Part shown: in pieces, positions 10,320 through 62,157 of the stretch
Layout of the letters: every line of letters begins with the position of its first letter
Position numbering within the stretch: position 1 is the first letter of the stretch
NCBI RefSeq assembly: GCF_000196875.2
Contig: NC_014532.2
Location: forward strand, 3,658,001 to 3,722,000
Direction of reading: 5' to 3'
DNA: 64,000 nt
DNA from: Halomonas elongata DSM 2581
Lineage (GTDB): Bacteria > Pseudomonadota > Gammaproteobacteria > Pseudomonadales > Halomonadaceae
The notes under the pieces: model-generated
Seen by the model: the letters and a program-made list of their open reading frames with translations, nothing else
Databases searched by the model: none
Told to the model about the DNA's origin: nothing
Made by a program: the position numbers and the translations under genes

Positions 10320-10757
10320 ATGCCAGTAGCCGAACAGAAGATGGAAGCGCCCAAGAAATTCACCCCGTACGAGCCGGCGCCGGGTGAAGAGTACATGAAC
10401 GAGAAGCAGCTCGAGCACTTCCGGCAGATCCTGCTGGGCTGGAAGCAGGAGCTGATGGAAGAGGTCGACCGCACGGTTCGCCACCTGCAGGAAGAGGCGA
10501 ACAATTACGCCGACCCGGCCGACCGCGCCACTCAGGAAGAGGGCTTCAGCCTCGAACTGCGCACCCGCGATCGTGAGCGCAAGCTGCTGAAGAAGATCAA
10601 CGAGACCATCGAGAAGATCGACGAGGACGACTACGGCTTCTGCGAGGCCTGCGGCGTCGAGATCGGCATTCGCCGCCTCGAGGCGCGCCCCACCGCCACG
10701 CTGTGCGTCGATTGCAAGACCCTCGCCGAACTCAAGGAAAAGCAGCTCGGCGGCTGA
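10320..10757 (+). CDS. dksA: RNA polymerase-binding transcription factor DksA
   Basis: Binds in the RNA polymerase secondary channel and, with ppGpp, controls rRNA and amino acid promoters. 145 residues: a coiled coil whose tip has the DPADRATQEE acidic motif (about 62-71), and a C4 zinc finger CEACGVEIG...CVDCK near the C-terminus. The N-terminus MPVAEQKMEAPKKFTPYEP is typical. The 251-base gap upstream, shared with the divergent aminotransferase, must hold its promoter; no clear hexamers were identified. gluQ follows, as in other gammaproteobacteria. Confidence 0.96.
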   Translation: MPVAEQKMEAPKKFTPYEPAPGEEYMNEKQLEHFRQILLGWKQELMEEVDRTVRHLQEEANNYADPADRATQEEGFSLELRTRDRERKLLKKINETIEKIDEDDYGFCEACGVEIGIRRLEARPTATLCVDCKTLAELKEKQLGG

Positions 10758-10890: not shown

Positions 10891-11787
10891 ATGAGCGTCT
10901 ATCGTGGCCGCTTCGCCCCCACACCCTCGGGCCCCTTGCACTTCGGCTCGCTGATCGCGGCGCTGGCCAGCTATCTCGATGCCCGCCATCAACAAGGCCA
11001 CTGGCTGCTGCGTATCGAGGACATCGACCCGCCGCGCTGTCCGGCCGGCGCGGCAGACACCATCCTGCGCCAGCTCGAGGCCTTCGGCCTGCACTGGGAT
11101 GGCCCGGTCCACTGGCAACACGACCGCGACGGCGCCTATCAGGCGGCACTCGCCAGGCTCGAGGCCCAGGGCCTGGCCTACCCCTGCAGCTGCTCACGCA
11201 AGCAATGGCGGGATCATCCCATCTACCCCGGTTGGTGCCGGACAGGTCCTCGCGAGCCGGACAAGCCCCTGGCCTGGCGCCTGCGCAGCGACCTCGGCCC
11301 GCGCCCGATCGTCTGGCAGGATCGACTGTTCGGCCTGCAACGCTTCGATCCCGCCGCCCTCGGCGATGTCGTCCTCAAGCGCAAGGACGATCTCTGGGCC
11401 TATCAGCTCGCCGTGGTGGTGGACGATGGCGCCCAGGGCATCACCGATGTCGTTCGCGGCTTCGACCTGCTGGACAACACGCCCTGGCAGCGCCAGCTCC
11501 AGCACGCCCTGGCACTGCCGGAACCTCGTTACCTGCACCTGCCATTGATCCTCGCTGACAATGGGCAGAAGCTGTCGAAACAGAACCTGGCGCCGGCCCT
11601 GCCGGAACAGGCGGAGGCCGCGCGCCCCCTGCTGCATCGCGCCCTGGTCGCCCTCGATCAGGCGCCACCCGCGGCGCTGGCCACCGAACCGGCGAGCGCG
11701 CAACTCGACTGGGCCATCGCGCACTGGTCACCGCAACGCCTGCAGGCAACCGCCGAAAAACGCGAACCGCACGCCGCTCAACGCTGA
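10891..11787 (+). CDS. gluQ: glutamyl-Q tRNA(Asp) synthetase
   Basis: Truncated GluRS paralogue without an anticodon-binding domain; it attaches glutamate to queuosine in tRNA-Asp. 298 residues. The HIGH-type motif is in RFAPTPSGPLHFGSL (about 7-21). Zinc ligands are in CSCSRKQW...YPGWCR, and the KMSKS-like motif is GQKLSKQN. It lies in the conserved dksA-gluQ order, just upstream of the CbrAB genes. Confidence 0.95.
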   Translation: MSVYRGRFAPTPSGPLHFGSLIAALASYLDARHQQGHWLLRIEDIDPPRCPAGAADTILRQLEAFGLHWDGPVHWQHDRDGAYQAALARLEAQGLAYPCSCSRKQWRDHPIYPGWCRTGPREPDKPLAWRLRSDLGPRPIVWQDRLFGLQRFDPAALGDVVLKRKDDLWAYQLAVVVDDGAQGITDVVRGFDLLDNTPWQRQLQHALALPEPRYLHLPLILADNGQKLSKQNLAPALPEQAEAARPLLHRALVALDQAPPAALATEPASAQLDWAIAHWSPQRLQATAEKREPHAAQR

Positions 11788-11795
11788 GGAGGCTC

Positions 11796-11975
11796 ATGTA
11801 CGTCTATCGCATCATGTTGTTCCTGGTCTTCGGCGGTTATCTGTTCTCGCCGCTGCTGATGAGCGGCTGGGCCAATCCCGGCGCCGCCTGGTACCGCCCC
11901 TTTCTCATCTGGGGCGGACTGATCGCCCTGACCCTGTGGCTGGAACAGAAGCGCAAGCTCGATGAACAGCGCTAG
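11796..11975 (+). CDS. cbrX: CbrX-like small membrane protein
   Basis: A 59-residue protein beginning MYVYRIMLFLVFGGYLFSPL, with two hydrophobic segments (about 5-22 and 34-50) joined by a short polar loop (SGWANPGAAWYRP) and a charged tail EQKRKLDEQR. A GAGGAGG ribosome site lies just upstream. It occupies the place between gluQ and cbrA where Pseudomonas has the small gene cbrX, which is co-transcribed with cbrA there. Its stop is 15 bases before the cbrA ATG. The symbol rests on position and size; its function is not known to me. Confidence 0.75.
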   Translation: MYVYRIMLFLVFGGYLFSPLLMSGWANPGAAWYRPFLIWGGLIALTLWLEQKRKLDEQR

Positions 11976-11990
11976 GAAGGCATTCGCACC

Positions 11991-14943
11991 ATGAGCCTCA
12001 ACCTCCCCGGCCTGCTGGCACTCGGCATCGGCTATCTGTCCCTGCTGTTTCTCGGCGCGCTGGCCGTCGATCGCGGCTGGCTGCCGAGCCGACTGGTACG
12101 CCACCCGGTCGTCTACACCCTGGCACTCGGCGTCTATGCCAGCGCCTGGGCGGTCTACGGCAGCCTCGAGTTCGCCAGCCACTACGGCTTCGGGTATCTG
12201 GCCTACTACCTGGGCGCCGCCGGCGCCTTCCTGCTGGCACCGGTACTGCTGGTGCCGATCCAGCGCATGACCCGCACCCACCAGCTCTCCTCGCTGGCCG
12301 ACCTGTTCGCCTTTCGCTTTCGCTCGCGCTGGGTCGGCACCCTGCTGACCCTGGTCAGCCTGCTGGCCGTGCTGCCCTTGCTGGCCCTGCAGATCCAGAC
12401 CATGGGCCATGCCATCCATCGCCTCAGCGGTGTCGGCTCGCCCTCCCTGCTGGCCCTGGGCTTCAGCCTGTTGATCGCCTTGTTCGCCATGCTGTTCGGC
12501 GCTCGCCACACGCACCTCAACACCCGGCACGACAGCCTGCTGGCAGCGATCGCCCTGGAGTCGCTGGTCAAGCTGGTCGCCATGCTGGCCCTCGGTGCCG
12601 TGGCCCTCTTCGGCGTCTTCGACGGCCCCGCCGATCTCCAGACCTGGCTCGACGGTGCCGGACACGTCGACCAGACCCGCATCGCCCAGCTCGATCCGGC
12701 CCAGTGGCGCACGCTGTTGCTGCTGTTCTTTTCGGCGGCCTTTCTGATGCCGCAGATGTTCCACATCACCTTCGCCGAGACCCTCGACCGACGTACCCTG
12801 CTCCAGGCCAGCTGGGCACTGCCGCTGTTCCTGTTGTTGATGGCCCTGCCGATACCGCTGATCCTGTGGGCCACGCAGCGCCTGGGGGTCGACGAGGTAG
12901 GTGCCGGCGCCGCCTATCTGGCCTTCGGCCTGTCCTCGTCGTGGTGGGTCGGCGGCCTGGCCTTCATCGCCGGCCTGGCCGCGGCGAGCGGTACCATGGT
13001 CATCATCTCGCTGGCCCTGTCGGGGATGATCCTCAATCACTTCGTACTGGTGGCGCATCCACCGATCGCCCAACCCGACCTCTATCGCTGGCTACGCTGG
13101 CTGCGCCGCGGCCTGATCGCCGCGGTGATCGTCGGAGGCTGGCTGTTCTATCGCCTGGTCGGCGTGCACCACGATCTCTCCACCCTGGGCCTGGCCTCCT
13201 TCGTCGGCATGGCCCAGTGCCTGCCGGGCATGCTGGCCCTGCTGTACTGGCCGGGCGCCAACCGCAAGGGCATGGTTTCCGGTCTCGTGGTCGGCCTGGC
13301 GATCTGGCTGGCCGGCTTGTGGGTGCCGCTGCTCACCGAGCATCCTCCGATGGTGTTCCTGCCGCCGGGACTGGATGTCCTGGCCGGCGAGCCCGCCTGG
13401 TACAGCGTCACCCTGGTCTCGCTGGCGGCGAATATCCTGACCTTCATCCTCGTCTCCCTGGCCACCCGGACCTCGGCCGGGGAGCGTGCGGCGGCCGAGG
13501 CCTGCTCCGTGGACGCCGTGGTACGGCCCATGCGGCTGCCCCTGGTCGCGGCCAATGGCGCCGAATTCAAGCGCCACCTGGCCCGCGTACTGGGCGAGGA
13601 CGTGGCCCAGCGCGAGGTCGAGCGTGCCCTGACCGCGCTGCGACTGTCGCCCCTCGACGGGCGCCCCTATGCCCTGCGGCGCCTGCGCGACCACATCCAG
13701 GCCAACCTCTCCGGCCTGATGGGCCCCTCGGTGGCCCAGGACATCGTCGATCGTTGCCTGCCCTATCGGCACAACGGCCCCAGCGCCACCGAGGACATCC
13801 ACTTCGTCGAGAGTCGACTGGAGGCCTATCGCTCGCGGCTCACCGGCCTGGCGCGCGAGCTCGACGGCCTGCGACGCTACCATCGCCGCACCCTGACCCG
13901 CTTGCCCGTCGGCCTGTGCGCCTTCGGCGAGGATGGCGAGCTGCTGATGTGGAACGACGCCTTGGCCGAGCTTTCCGGCATCGAGGGAGACTCGGTGATC
14001 GGCGCCCACCGCGACACCCTGCCCGCTCCCTGGAACGACCTGCTCGGCCAGATTCTCGCCGCACCGCAGGGCCGCCTCTACAAGCAGCCGGTCAGCCTGT
14101 CGCGGGGCGAGCGTTATCTGACCCTGCACCGCGCCGGCCTGCAGGGCGAGCAAGGGGAAGACGGCGGCTATGTCATCCTGGTGGAGGATCACAGCGAGAT
14201 GAAGTGGCTGGAAGACGAACTGGTCCACGCCGCCCGCCTTGCCTCCATCGGCCAGTTGGCCACCGGTGTCGCCCACGAGATCGGCAATCCCATCACCGGC
14301 ATTTCCTCGCTGGCCCAGAACCTGCGTTACGACACCGACGATCCTGCCCTGCTCGAGACGGCCGACCAGATCCAGGCGTTGACCGACCGCGTCTCGAAGA
14401 TCGTCGGCTCGCTGGTCGGCTTCGCCCATGGCGGCCGACACGTCACCGGCGCGGACTTCGCTCCCACCAGCATGGCCGAGGTCACCGACGAGGCCCTGCA
14501 CTTGATCCGGCTCGCCCGCTCGGGGGAGGATGTCCGATACGAGAACCGCTGCCCGACCGACCAGGCGGTCATCGGGGACGCGCAGCGCCTGCAGCAGGTG
14601 ATGATCAACCTGCTGGGCAATGCCCGGGACGCCAGCGAGCCAGGAGATCGCGTCATCGTCGAGGCCATGCCGGAAGATCGACGCCTGCACCTGACCATCA
14701 CCGACGAAGGCCACGGCATCGCCCCGCAGATGCGCGACCACCTGTTCGAGCCCTTCACCACCACCAAACCGGCGGGGGAAGGTACGGGTCTGGGCCTGCC
14801 GCTGGTCTACAGCATCGTCGCCGAGCATGATGGCCAGATCGAGATAGAGTCCCCGCCCGCCGGCCAGGCCAGCGGTACGCGCATCCATCTGTGGCTACCC
14901 CTCGACCCACAGAATGGCGAACCACAGAATGGCGAAAGCACCC

Positions 14944-14966
<23 letters not shown>
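11991..14966 (+). CDS. cbrA: CbrA-type sensor histidine kinase with SSF transporter domain
   Basis: Membrane histidine kinase of the CbrAB system, which senses carbon/nitrogen state and sets catabolite repression in pseudomonads. 991 residues. About the first 500 form a sodium:solute symporter-like region with around a dozen hydrophobic segments. A linker follows, then a PAS domain (about 635-735, LPVGLCAFGEDGELLMWN), a HisKA box with phospho-His 762 (TGVAHEIGNPITG) and an HATPase domain (NLLGNARDAS, GTGLGLPLVYSIV). AGGAAGG precedes the ATG. Its 3' end overlaps cbrB by 23 bases. The transporter domain may transport histidine, as reported for Pseudomonas; the substrate here is unknown. Confidence 0.93.
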
Positions 14967-16335
<1,369 letters not shown>

Positions 16336-16443
16336 TCCACACCGCACCATCCCGCTTCGCACCACCTCGACTAAAGTGCAACGCCTTGCCTCGCCGGGTC
16401 GAGGCCCTGTTCATGTGGCCTCGGATACACATTACGCACCATT

Positions 16444-16494
16444 TGTTACCTTCCCACACAGCCTGTGCGCCATCTCGGGGCAGTTTGGGTAACA
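16444..16494. promoter_or_regulatory. TGTTACC...GGTAACA half-sites upstream of crcZ (candidate CbrB site)
   Basis: TGTTACC (16444-16450) and its exact inverse GGTAACA (16488-16494) are separated by 37 bases, and end 75 bases before the -24 element of a sigma-54 promoter. This is the usual place for an activator site of an NtrC-type protein. As I recall, Pseudomonas CbrB sites are described as TGTTAC-type inverted repeats, so the match is suggestive but not verified. The same 7-mers recur upstream of panB. Confidence 0.6.
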
Positions 16495-16568
16495 CTGTCC
16501 CTGGGGCATCGAAGTGACAAAATGATGAAATCCAATAAGCAATTGAATAAAAAGGATTTACAAGCCAT

Positions 16569-16584
16569 TGGCACAGCCTCTGCA
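16569..16584 (+). promoter_or_regulatory. sigma-54 promoter of the crcZ-like RNA
   Basis: The sequence TTGGCACAGCCTCTGCAA (16568-16585) has the -24 GG at 16570-16571 and the -12 GC at 16582-16583, exactly 12 apart, as RpoN promoters require. It differs from the consensus TGGCACGnnnnTTGC at only two positions. Transcription is predicted to begin near 16595, at the left end of the A-rich repeat region. It lies downstream of cbrB, a sigma-54 activator gene. Confidence 0.85.
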
Positions 16585-16594
16585 ACATTATGGG

Positions 16595-17088
16595 CAAGAA
16601 AAACAAATCCGGATGCTACCGACGGCTCCAACAACAACAATGACCGAACGCGGTGGCAGGACCCGAACCAACAACAACAAGCCCTTCGGGTCGAGACACT
16701 TGGGCGCCATGCCGACAACAAGAACAGCAACGGCGATGGGCGCAAGTCCTTCGAGGTCAACAACAACAAGAACTCGAAGCCGGAAATCAGGACGCGACGC
16801 ACCGACAATCGGCCACCAACAAGAACAAGGGCCGTCAGGGTGCACTCCCGGTAACAACAACAAGCCACCGGGGGAAGGTATGCCAGGCATGCCGTCGTGG
16901 TTGGATTATTGTTTTGAATACGAGGCGGTCGCCGCCAGGAACGTCAATAAAGACAACAACATGCTTGCCTGAGACTCCTTGGTGACTGTGGTGCGTATTC
17001 AAGGCGATGCGCCATCACGAAGAAGAACCAGCAGCAACGGATGCTGCACCTTGCTTGATCCAGGGGAGGCCAACCGGCCTCCCCTTTC
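16595..17088 (+). ncRNA. crcZ: CrcZ-like Hfq/Crc-sequestering small RNA
   Basis: Noncoding transcript of about 490 bases between cbrB and pcnB, the exact position of crcZ in Pseudomonas. Nine A-rich segments of the AAnAAnAA kind lie at 16595-16607, 16629-16640, 16669-16681, 16713-16730, 16758-16773, 16816-16829, 16852-16864, 16945-16960 and 17018-17038, several inside predicted loops. In Pseudomonas such motifs bind Hfq with Crc and titrate the catabolite repression complex when CbrB is active. A sigma-54 promoter stands at the 5' end and a strong hairpin terminator at the 3' end. The open frames crossing this stretch only reflect the CAA repeats. Pseudomonas CrcZ is about 400 bases with fewer motifs. 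Confidence 0.85.
17062..17088 (+). terminator. crcZ terminator
   Basis: Perfect 10-bp stem AGGGGAGGCC (17062-17071) / GGCCTCCCCT (17076-17085) with a 4-nt loop AACC, followed by TTTCT. It closes the A-rich RNA region and precedes the pcnB promoter region. Confidence 0.9.
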
Positions 17089-17214
17089 TACGTGCGTTCC
17101 ATGTGCCGCCATGTCGTCCGATGCCCGACTGCCGAGGTGTCGACCATGGCAAGACAGGGCACAGGCATCGGGCCGAATGAGCCCTCGGCACTTCACGCAC
17201 GACAGCGTCACGCT

Positions 17215-17242
17215 TTGCAAGGTGTCGGGTGTCCGCTACACT
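17215..17242 (+). promoter_or_regulatory. possible pcnB promoter
   Basis: TTGCAA (17215-17220), a 16-bp spacer and TACACT (17237-17242), 50 bases before the pcnB start and downstream of the crcZ terminator. Each hexamer deviates from consensus at two positions, so this is a tentative call. Confidence 0.45.
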
Positions 17243-17291
17243 CAACGCTTTTCGTACTCTCCTTCGTACTCCCGCGAGTCGACATCACCGC

Positions 17292-18695
17292 ATGATCAAA
17301 GGTTTTACCCGCTTTCTGCAGAGTCCGGGCGAGCATATCAAGTCACTGTTCGGCCCTCAGGATGCGCCGGCTGGAGACCCCGTGCCGCGCATCATTCCCC
17401 GCGATGAACACCCCGTATCGCGTCAGCACTTCAGTGACGCTGCGCTCAAGGTGCTGTACCGCCTGCACAATGCCGGGTTCGAGGCCTTCCTTGTCGGCGG
17501 CTGCATCCGCGACGCGCTGCTGGGCCGCATGCCCAAGGATTTCGACGTGGCCACCGATGCCACGCCGGACGAGGTGCGCGACCTGTTCCGCAACTCGCGC
17601 ATCATCGGGCGCCGCTTCCGCATCGTCCACGTGCGCTTCGGTCGCGAAGTCATCGAGGTCACCACCTTCAGGGGCAAGCCCAACGACGATCACGGCGACC
17701 ACATCGCCCAGCAATCCGACGACGGCATGCTGCTGCGCGACAACGTCTGGGGCAACATCGAGGAAGACGCGCTGCGCCGCGACTTCACGATCAATGCCCT
17801 GTATTACAACATCGCCGATTTCTCGATCCACGATTTTGCGGACGGGGCACGCGACATCGACGCCCGCACCCTGCGGCTGATCGGTGACCCGGCCACGCGC
17901 TATCGGGAAGACCCGGTACGCATGCTGCGCGCCATACGCTTCGCCGCCAAGCTCGACTTCAGTCTGGCTCGCGCCACCGAGGAGCCGATCGAGGAACTGG
18001 CCCCGCTGCTCCTGCAGGTGCCACCGGCCCGGTTGTTCGACGAGGTCCTCAAGCTGTTCATGGCCGGTCATGGCGTCGAAACCTTCCAGTTGCTGAGGGA
18101 ATACGGGCTGTTCGCCATGCTGTTTCCCGAGGCCGACGAAGCCTTCGACGAGTTGCCCTGGGCCGAAGGCCTGATCGAGCAGGCTCTGGCAAGCACCGAC
18201 AAGCGCGTTCAGGAAGAGCGACCGGTAACACCGGCCTTTCTGTTCGCCGCTCTGCTGTGGGGGCCCGTCCAGTTGCGCCAACGCGCCCACCAGCAGGACG
18301 GCATGCCACCGATTCCTGCGCTGCAGGCGGCATCGCAGCAGGTGGTATCTCGCCAGCTACAGCATGTCTCCATCCCCAAGCGCTTCAGCCTGCCGATGCG
18401 CGATATCTGGGACCTCCAACAGCGACTGCCCTCGCGCCGCGGCAAGCGCGTCTTTCAGACTCGCGACCATCCACGCTTCCGTGCCGCCTACGACTTTCTG
18501 TTGCTGCGCGAGGCCGCCGGAGAGATCGAGCCCGGGCTCGGCGACTGGTGGACCGCGTTTCAGCAGGCCGATGAGCACGAGCAGCGTCGCCTGCTGGGCA
18601 AGGTCGACGCCGACCCGGCCGGCACCCCGGCACCACGCAAGCGGCGCCGTCGGCGGCGGCGCAAGCCTCGCAATCCCGACGACAACAACACATGA
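17292..18695 (+). CDS. pcnB: poly(A) polymerase I
   Basis: Adds poly(A) tails to RNA 3' ends and so promotes decay. 467 residues. The class II nucleotidyltransferase head is FLVGGCIRDALLGRMPKDFDVATDA, with the catalytic DxD in DFDVATD; the RNA-binding region has LRRDFTINALYYNI and the segment RYREDPVRMLRAIRFAAKL. The C-terminus ends in a basic Arg/Lys-rich tail (APRKRRRRRRRK). The start at 17292 gives MIKGFTRFLQSP; no strong ribosome site is visible. The stop overlaps folK by 4 bases (ATGA). Confidence 0.95.
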   Translation: MIKGFTRFLQSPGEHIKSLFGPQDAPAGDPVPRIIPRDEHPVSRQHFSDAALKVLYRLHNAGFEAFLVGGCIRDALLGRMPKDFDVATDATPDEVRDLFRNSRIIGRRFRIVHVRFGREVIEVTTFRGKPNDDHGDHIAQQSDDGMLLRDNVWGNIEEDALRRDFTINALYYNIADFSIHDFADGARDIDARTLRLIGDPATRYREDPVRMLRAIRFAAKLDFSLARATEEPIEELAPLLLQVPPARLFDEVLKLFMAGHGVETFQLLREYGLFAMLFPEADEAFDELPWAEGLIEQALASTDKRVQEERPVTPAFLFAALLWGPVQLRQRAHQQDGMPPIPALQAASQQVVSRQLQHVSIPKRFSLPMRDIWDLQQRLPSRRGKRVFQTRDHPRFRAAYDFLLLREAAGEIEPGLGDWWTAFQQADEHEQRRLLGKVDADPAGTPAPRKRRRRRRRKPRNPDDNNT

Positions 18696-26488: not shown

Positions 26489-26758
26489 TTAGCGGCGCAG
26501 ACCGAGGCGCTGGATAATCGACTGATAACGCTCGAAATCCTTGCGCTTCAGATAGTCGAGCAGCTTACGACGCTGGTTGACCATGCGGATCAGGCCACGA
26601 CGCGAGTGGTGATCCTGCTTGTTGGTCTTGAAGTGATCCTGCAGGCCGTCGATGTTGGCGGTCAGCAGGGCCACCTGAACCTCGGGGGAACCGGTGTCGT
26701 TTTCACCACGGCCGTATTCGTTGACGATCGCGGCTTTCTGTTCAGCGGTCAGTGCCAT
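26489..26758 (-). CDS. rpsO: 30S ribosomal protein S15
   Basis: Small-subunit protein of 89 residues that binds 16S rRNA early in assembly. It carries the full S15 signature: [37 protein letters not shown] precedes the ATG. It follows truB by 90 bases and may be partly expressed from the upstream nusA-infB operon. Confidence 0.97.
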
Positions 26759-26848
26759 CTGTCTCTCCAGTAAGCAATATGCCTGAATGATGAATGTCGG
26801 GGACCACGCATATTTGCAGTCCCCACGCCCAGCCCCGTCGGGGCTGGC

Positions 26849-33001: not shown

Positions 33002-33078
<77 letters not shown>

Positions 33079-33201: not shown

Positions 33202-33288
33202 TGGTGCCGAAGGCGGGACTTGAACCCGCACGACCGTAAGGTCACTACCCCCTCAAGATAGCGTGTCTACCAATTCCACCACTTCGGC
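33202..33288 (-). tRNA. tRNA-Leu (GAG)
   Basis: An 87-base class II tRNA with encoded CCA. It begins GCCGAAGTGGTGGAATTGG, with the anticodon loop TTGAGGG (anticodon GAG, codons CUC/CUU). The long variable arm is TGACCTTACGGTCG, the T-arm GGGTTCAAGTCCC. It is co-oriented with secG upstream and tRNA-fMet downstream. Confidence 0.95.
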
Positions 33289-61778: not shown

Positions 61779-62157
61779 GGGGGCGACATGGCTTCGACGC
61801 CGATGACAAACCCTGAGGTGCATGCCGAGAGCGTGATGTATCTCGTAAATCCAACATCACGATTAAATAGTCGCAAACGACGACAACTACGCTCAGGGCG
61901 CGCTGGCAGCGTAAAAACTGCTAGCTTCTAGTCCTACCCGGCGGTGATGTGCCCATTCATCACCAAAGGGCACGAGCTCAGACTGATGGGATCGCGGTTG
62001 GCTTCGTCCTCGCGTCAACCGTTAAACCTTAGAGGAATCGCGTTTCTGGATCCTGGCCGTCGGAGCCAGAAGCGTTAAAGCAAAAGACGGAACTAAGCAT
62101 GTAGAGCCGATGGGCGAGTGTCGGCGGACGCGGGTTCGATTCCCGCCGCCTCCACCA
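61779..62157 (+). ncRNA. ssrA: transfer-messenger RNA (tmRNA)
   Basis: 379-base one-piece tmRNA. The 5' end GGGGGCG pairs with CGCCTCC before the 3' ACCA (62154-62157). The tag frame starts at GCA 61873 and encodes ANDDNYAQGALAA, with stop TAA at 61912-61914. The T-arm GGGTTCGATTCCC is intact. A -10-like TAGAAT (61762-61767) precedes it. The 3' end is a common integration site, and island-like genes follow. Confidence 0.96.
61873..61914 (+). other. tmRNA proteolysis tag reading frame
   Basis: Thirteen codons (GCA to GCG) plus TAA inside ssrA encode ANDDNYAQGALAA. The C-terminal ALAA is the degradation signal recognised by ClpXP and related proteases. The first tag alanine is supplied by the charged tmRNA itself. 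Confidence 0.92.

Follow-up and report, generated by a model that had tools for sequence, protein, structure and literature searches.

Introduction

The interval between cbrB and pcnB in Halomonas elongata raises the question whether the regulatory circuit built around the small RNA CrcZ in Pseudomonas also exists in halomonads. The CbrAB system is called exclusive of the Pseudomonads in a passage of a 2018 study (PMC6296734), and an excerpt of a 2022 review calls it unique to Pseudomonadaceae and described only in Pseudomonas and Azotobacter (PMC8871633). Our search of open-licence PubMed Central found no publication on CrcZ or CbrAB in Halomonas, Marinobacter or Oceanospirillales, and none that had Hfq or catabolite repression in Halomonas as its subject. 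A first-pass annotation of this DNA proposed that a halomonad has a Pseudomonas-like circuit. The sequence parts of such a circuit are present, but they extend more widely than proposed, over much of the GTDB order, and the RNA is not simply CrcZ. The interval very probably encodes a CrcZ-like decoy RNA of Halomonadaceae under CbrB/sigma-54 control, and we put the probability that this RNA acts in trans as a decoy like Pseudomonas CrcZ at about 85%.

Results

Genes around the interval

The window is the whole 64-kb stretch of DNA that was analysed, and all coordinates refer to it. The interval spans 16336-17228, contains the promoter, CA clusters and terminator described below, and lies, as first annotated, between cbrB, whose frame ends at 16335, and pcnB, whose frame opens at 17229. 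The poly(A) polymerase gene pcnB (17229-18695, + strand; TIGR01942, 542 bits) probably starts at the ATG at 17292, where the proteins of relatives begin. Further upstream are two frames which we take to be dksA (10320-10757) and gluQRS (10891-11787, + strand). Homologues of both were found upstream of pcnB in all ten regions compared, and dksA-gluQRS-cbr-RNA-pcnB is the apparent ancestral gene order.

Three genes on the + strand separate gluQRS from the interval. The first, cbrX (11796-11975), encodes a 59-aa membrane peptide matching chain X of PDB 10ED (E 1.7e-15). The second, cbrA (11991-14966), encodes an SLC5 transporter domain joined to a histidine kinase (HisKA, HATPase_c), and its residues 1-594 match chain A of the same entry (E 4.9e-173), which is described in the accessible part of its report as the Pseudomonas CbrXA structure (PMC13022988). 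The third, cbrB (14914-16335), encodes a sigma-54 response regulator (Response_reg, Sigma54_activat); its start is uncertain and the ATG at 14944 is a better fit to homologues. Its orthology is based on synteny and on 62-64% identity to cbrB of three loci carrying Rfam CrcZ (family f21, Pseudomonas-type). The order of the three genes is that of CbrX-CbrA-CbrB in Pseudomonas and Azotobacter, and together the SLC5-kinase CbrA, the sigma-54 regulator CbrB and the peptide CbrX make up a CbrXAB set.

Promoter and upstream sites

The sigma-54 promoter TGGCACAGCCTCTGCA at 16569-16584 (+ strand) has GG and GC 10 bp apart and matches 11 of 12 scored positions, the single mismatch being CTGC instead of TTGC; the exact -24/-12 spacing read in the first-pass annotation is thereby confirmed. 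The score was also 11/12 in 77 of 78 halomonad intervals (window included), and 10 in the remaining one. Upstream, on the + strand, are an F-type CbrB half-site (TGTTAC, 16444-16449) at -125 from the promoter element and an R-type half-site (GTAACA, 16489-16494) at -80. The R half-site was found 79-81 bp from the promoter in 78/78 halomonad loci, and the F-to-R spacing was 45 bp in 71 of them, 35 bp in four, 46 bp in two and 44 bp in one. A candidate IHF-like site (16536-16548, - strand) is weak, with 8 of 9 positions of what we presume to be the IHF consensus, and so is the score in general (halomonad mean 7.8/9 compared with 6.8 in shuffles).

The three Pseudomonas-type loci with an Rfam CrcZ match have F at -123 to -125, R1 at -102 or -103 and R2 (GTAACG) at -80 to -82. 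Since the half-site distances agree there, including that of F in the window, halomonads retain a site at each of the F1 and R2 positions and are without R1. According to the part of the work from which the half-site consensus was taken, all three CbrB sites of P. putida crcZ contribute and none is essential (PMC6296734).

The predicted RNA

The predicted RNA of about 495 nt (16596-17090, + strand) would start some 12 nt past the GC element and end at an intrinsic terminator, AGGGGAGGCC-AACC-GGCCTCCCCT (17062-17085, + strand, with a tail to 17090). The perfect 10-bp stem reported earlier was recovered there, and it is followed by a weak U-run (TTTCT). The 5' domain (16596-16863, + strand) holds seven CA clusters by the strict motif AAnAAnAA, at 16596-16606, 16630-16640, 16670-16680, 16717-16724, 16759-16772, 16818-16828 and 16853-16863, and an eighth (17020-17027, + strand) lies inside the 3' hairpin module. 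Dinucleotide shuffles of 16595-17088 gave a mean of 0.51 separate clusters and a maximum of 4 in 1000. Of the nine motifs of the first-pass annotation the strict rule therefore recovers eight; the one left over probably corresponds either to GACAACAACA, a near-match at about 16952, or to AATAAAAA, which precedes the promoter at 16546. That the RNA is longer and has more motifs than in Pseudomonas held good: P. aeruginosa CrcZ is given as 407 nt with six A-rich stretches in the section consulted (PMC4063720).

The RNA was compared among 86 halomonad loci, i.e., 77 of the named loci, the window and eight further loci. The length to the terminator was 453-534 nt in 78 of them, with 5-9 CA clusters, and no terminator was found by the rule used in the other eight. 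On the transcribed strand all 78 intervals scored for the promoter (77 named loci and the window) had 5-11 clusters, as against 0-3 on the other strand. Conservation was 0.93 in the eight clusters and 0.77 elsewhere (23 aligned RNAs), a value reached by 0 of 494 circular shifts. The window RNA folds with z = -7.8, and none of 100 shuffles folded equally well. The clusters are mostly open, with an unpaired probability of 0.91 compared with 0.59 for other As, and they were higher in 86/86 RNAs. When the motifs were kept and the spacers shuffled, 12 of the 16 RNAs tested were natively more accessible than any of their 12 shuffles; in the remaining four, native accessibility was reached by 10 (L045), 7 (L256), 2 (L025) and 1 (L254) of the 12.

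Further copies corresponding to CrcY or CrcX were not found in the genome: among 24 sigma-54-like matches, the one in the interval alone is followed by CA clusters within 500 nt, in a search limited to sigma-54-like promoters that a copy with a different promoter would escape. The window also has ordinary Rfam matches, namely an S15 leader (26702-26827, -), tmRNA (61779-62157, +) and two tRNAs (33005-33078 and 33205-33288, -).

Conservation in Halomonadaceae and the 3' hairpin module

The named loci are the best 80 of 142 matches of a CbrA search and come from Halomonas, Billgrantia, Vreelandella, Litchfieldella, Modicisalibacter, Bisbaumannia and Halovibrio; the closest CbrA proteins in this set are those of H. 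eurihalina (95%) and of an H. elongata strain (94%). The order cbrA-cbrB-interval-pcnB was found in 77 of the 80, and the remaining three stop at contig ends before pcnB. All 77 that reach the interval have the same layout of promoter, half-sites and CA clusters. The synteny search suggested at the outset, for A-rich RNAs between cbrB and pcnB in Halomonadaceae, was thus borne out in 77/80 named loci. The parts of this locus, their conservation and their geometry are established by sequence and comparison.

A halomonad-specific 3' hairpin module (16892-17032, + strand) contains a nearly invariant 15-bp helix, of which 12 pairs were without variation in 41 sequences. Over the 86 loci, window positions 16909-16928 and 16989-17008 match at 98% and 95%, as against roughly 30-75% in the 5' CA domain. 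Five pairs of the upper helix are changed on both sides, U-G pairs are conserved, and there are 31 compensated cells; 99.5% of cells are paired, a figure that falls to 29-54% when the partners are slid. The module was present in 86 of 89 halomonad loci, the three misses being loci cut by contig ends. A covariance model built from 41 loci, used with strict filters that may lose weak matches, found it once in each of 18/18 family genomes and in 0/372 other genomes of the order. Rfam gave no match to the module on the RNA strand beyond chance level. A distant match in order locus L171 (16 bits, E 0.45) was not counted. The hairpin is a halomonad addition, which probably serves stability or binds a protein or an RNA partner.

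Halomonads without CbrA or CbrB

A CbrA match was absent in seven of the 18 family genomes and weak in an eighth (G312). All eight halomonads without a full cbrA retain the promoter and CA clusters before pcnB, as well as the 3' module. In one locus (L256) cbrA is reduced to a C-terminal fragment. In three others (L254, L255 and L257) cbrA was not found and cbrB stays. The receiver of L254 CbrB has Thr at the position of the phospho-acceptor Asp, and those of all three deviate at several otherwise conserved positions, the functional roles of which we assume. The receiver domains of these orphan CbrB proteins look decayed after the loss of cbrA, and the proteins are possibly phosphorylation-independent.

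In the last four (L258-L261, in genomes G130, G036, G257 and G176 of two genera) neither cbrA nor cbrB was found. The best CbrB-like matches in these genomes are 45-49% identical, i.e., at the level of other activators, compared with 74-81% in the four genomes with a retained cbrB. L258-L261 have also lost the half-site pair, while the sigma-54 promoter and 7-9 CA clusters remain. CbrB control is therefore not universal, the RNA having persisted in four genomes where neither cbrA nor cbrB was detected. Any use of the promoter there would require another activator, which may have taken over the RNA.

Spread in the order

The SLC5 part of CbrA was found at E <= 1e-60 in 269 of 390 genomes of the order and 105 of 142 genera, of which the weakest matches may be other SLC5 proteins. 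Forty loci from 23 higher-scoring families were sampled among the CbrA matches listed (down to E 3.8e-152); low-scoring families lie outside the sample because the listed matches stop at that value. Thirty-nine of these loci (22 families) were evaluable, L160 being the exception, and L139 ends inside the interval. A promoter scoring at least 10/12 was found in 31 of the 39 (19 families); shuffled intervals yield such a promoter in 1-13% of cases. A perfect CbrB half-site lies 30-200 bp upstream of the promoter in all 31 promoter-bearing loci, and in 29 of them, corresponding to 17 of the 22 evaluable families and including the Pseudomonas-type f21, CA clusters exceed shuffles (p <= 0.05). The eight loci without a promoter belong to f8 (three), f43 (two), f18 (one), f7 (one of its two loci) and f2 (the contig-cut locus L139), and the f4 locus and the other f7 locus have a promoter without CA excess. 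A halomonad profile that includes the promoter also picks up, in place, the corresponding promoter and 5' region in several loci of the order (best E 3e-7). The presence of this gene order with promoter and CA-rich RNA in 17 of 22 families would speak against the view that CbrAB is unique to Pseudomonadaceae.

Two further observations were made in the order. Three loci (L164, L176 and L177) have two high-scoring sigma-54-like promoters within one cbrB-pcnB interval, which suggests tandem CrcZ-like RNAs. The AT-rich locus L262 (f27) reads dksA-gluQRS-cbrB-like (46%)-pcnB, with cbrA absent and a promoter of 10/12; its AAAAATAA motifs are not above chance (6 compared with a shuffle mean of 3.6 and a maximum of 10 in 200), and it is possibly a remnant of the CbrAB-RNA circuit.

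Hfq and Crc

A single hfq gene, identified by sequence match, lies elsewhere in the H. elongata genome. Its product is identical to P. aeruginosa Hfq at 66 of 76 aligned residues, with Y25 changed to F, and is expected to be an Sm-like hexamer protein with an ARN-binding distal face. There are two ExoIII-like genes, one of which is Crc. The best solved relatives of this one are PDB 2myi, labelled exodeoxyribonuclease III and which we take to be P. syringae Crc, and P. aeruginosa Crc (PDB 4jg3), at 251-255 bits, a modest margin over the 217 bits of the next enzyme. The ExoIII-type catalytic residues, as we presume them to be, are changed in it and kept in the other ExoIII of the genome. It is adjoined by pyrE-like and rph-like frames (named by eye), pyrE and rph being the neighbours of crc in Pseudomonas. 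Identity to P. aeruginosa Crc is 47%, with the RKRRE and RR motifs retained. Nine of 11 contact or assembly residues, whose roles were taken from the text available of an earlier study (PMC6422490), are kept (R138, K139, R140, R141, E142, E193, R196, R229 and R230); the two that differ from Crc of P. aeruginosa and P. syringae are K155 (T) and M156 (I). Closeness to solved Crc proteins, changed catalytic residues and the presence of the RNA-contact arginines all argue that the gene is Crc. A Crc match was found in all 18 family genomes (73-100% identity). In the order a Crc-like match at E <= 1e-20 was found in 315 of 390 genomes, which is an upper bound because active nucleases of the same fold may be counted. 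In at least one order genome with promoter and CA clusters, G066, there was no Crc match at this threshold.

Comparison with CrcZ

The Rfam CrcZ model (RF01675, gathering threshold 95 bits) matched neither the genome nor the window, nor the interval in a search with lax filters. Applied to ten loci, it scored 305-313 in three Pseudomonas-type loci and 102.5 in one of another family, and gave no match in six, three of them halomonad. As a detector this model fails on the halomonad sequences tested while recognizing Pseudomonas-type loci. Weak Rfam matches to sroE, BTH_s1, snoRNAs and TUG1 in the interval were dismissed as chance, and one to P24 covers the terminator hairpin only, on the opposite strand.

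The halomonad RNA resembles CrcZ and its sisters CrcY and CrcX in its place between cbrB and pcnB on the same strand, its sigma-54 promoter, its terminator, its CbrB half-sites at equal distances, and its several CA/ARN clusters, which are on the transcribed strand and mostly single-stranded. It differs in that it has no Rfam match, lacks the middle R1 half-site and has an added, halomonad-only 3' hairpin. Unlike the CrcZ/CrcY/CrcX set, one copy was found in H. elongata, and unlike the published range of CbrAB, the host is a halomonad and the CbrA SLC5 part occurs in 269/390 genomes of the order. Because layout, half-site places, cbrXAB, hfq and crc agree while RF01675 misses, we regard the halomonad RNA as a CrcZ orthologue by position that is outside the Rfam family as modelled. 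As such it should work like CrcZ.

Candidate targets

The genome holds 50 instances of the motif AACAANAA with an ATG 3-14 nt downstream, as against 22 of the reversed pattern and 19 of a control motif with the letters permuted. In two more halomonads the counts were 35 and 61, compared with 15 and 27 for the reversed pattern. The gene-level follow-up of the 50 matches, which left out the window RNA itself and one match just past the window, gave 20 frames, several of them internal to other frames or doubtful. Nine genes were picked, among which Pfam recognized two LamB porins, an L-lactate permease, an AMP-binding (acyl-CoA type) enzyme, a family-3 solute-binding protein, an Na+/H+ antiporter-family protein, DUF3311 and DUF2291. 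Start-proximal motifs are shared between orthologues in G000 and G102 for two genes, the AMP-binding enzyme and a deacetylase-fold gene that looks allantoinase-like by eye, and in G102 and G364 for a solute-binding protein. Three other cases shared between species were set aside since the motif was inside coding sequence. A catabolic bias of these genes was sought and not established, because the few genes of the permuted control (7 frames, 6 genes) include transport genes too (three transport-like by eye). The excess of CA motif plus ATG is one of number, and as evidence for targets it is thin. The L-lactate permease frame at L221:523-1560 (346 aa) may be frameshifted, as its end looks out of frame and the Pfam profile is matched over only about half its length.

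Discussion

In the mechanism that we propose, exhaustion of the preferred carbon source would lead the transceptor kinase CbrA, together with CbrX, to phosphorylate CbrB. CbrB, seated on the half-sites at -125 and -80 with the assistance of IHF, would then activate sigma-54 polymerase at the promoter (16569-16584). Up to eight clusters of ARN repeats would be displayed in loops and linkers of the RNA made from it, some 495 nt long, and these would fill the distal face of Hfq, Crc acting as partner. Hfq and Crc would thereby be drawn off the A-rich ribosome-binding sites of catabolic and uptake mRNAs. Transcription, dependence on CbrB and IHF, binding of Hfq/Crc and relief of repression are what we infer from the sequence.

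Other explanations have to be weighed against this one, and the most serious concerns the 3' hairpin. It is possible, at less than even odds, that the RNA has two functions, the 5' half being the Hfq/Crc decoy and the hairpin a separate part (a base-pairing regulator or a protein-binding element) that maintains selection on the RNA even without CbrAB. The restriction of the module to the family (18/18 genomes compared with 0/372 others), its 98% and 95% match in segments of a molecule whose CA domain reaches 30-75%, its conserved U-G pairs and compensated changes, and its retention in the eight halomonads without full cbrA are all consistent with this. On the other hand, such strong conservation may merely reflect stability or 3'-end protection, and the four genomes lacking both cbrA and cbrB also keep 7-9 CA clusters, i.e., the decoy part. 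A decoy that titrates Hfq from all its duties, Crc being incidental, appears unlikely: G066 (L161) has the promoter, seven CA clusters and cbrAB without a Crc match, but Crc is found in all 18 family genomes at 73-100% identity and most of its RNA-contact residues are kept in H. elongata.

The RNA could also be a long pcnB leader that tunes poly(A) polymerase by attenuation, as it lies upstream of pcnB on the same strand in 77/80 named loci (the rest being contig-cut) and in the eight further loci. This is very improbable given that a terminator precedes pcnB in 78 of 86 loci, that the order locus L163 has promoter and CA clusters with no pcnB match within the region examined, and that the CA clusters would be left unexplained. 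That the interval is a coding gene or a chance A-rich stretch is scarcely credible. Open frames of 100-140 aa do overlap the RNA, and in 32 of 86 loci one frame stays fully open over 330 nt; yet 236 of 278 indels (in 22 non-independent pairwise comparisons) are not multiples of three, and no phase is consistently richer in substitutions, although some pairs are uneven. Chance would have to produce both the fold z of -7.8 and a CA count above that of all 1000 shuffles. The trans-acting decoy thus remains the preferred reading.

It is tempting to speculate, and we offer this tentatively, that the circuit of CbrXAB, sigma-54 and a CA-rich decoy RNA was already present in the ancestor of the GTDB order that contains Pseudomonas and Halomonas, and is not an invention of the Pseudomonadaceae. 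Halomonads would have fused a second, nearly invariant 3' module to the RNA, which let it outlive its sensor and activator: cbrA would have been lost first, then the CbrB receiver and then cbrB, the RNA passing to another sigma-54 activator.

If the circuit spans the order, control by Hfq/Crc with an RNA decoy would be a major and older way in which marine and halophilic bacteria choose their carbon, among them the Halomonas employed in industrial bioplastic production. The halomonad 3' hairpin provides a defined RNA part with a role that is testable by one deletion, and the lineages without cbrAB illustrate how a regulatory RNA may change its master.
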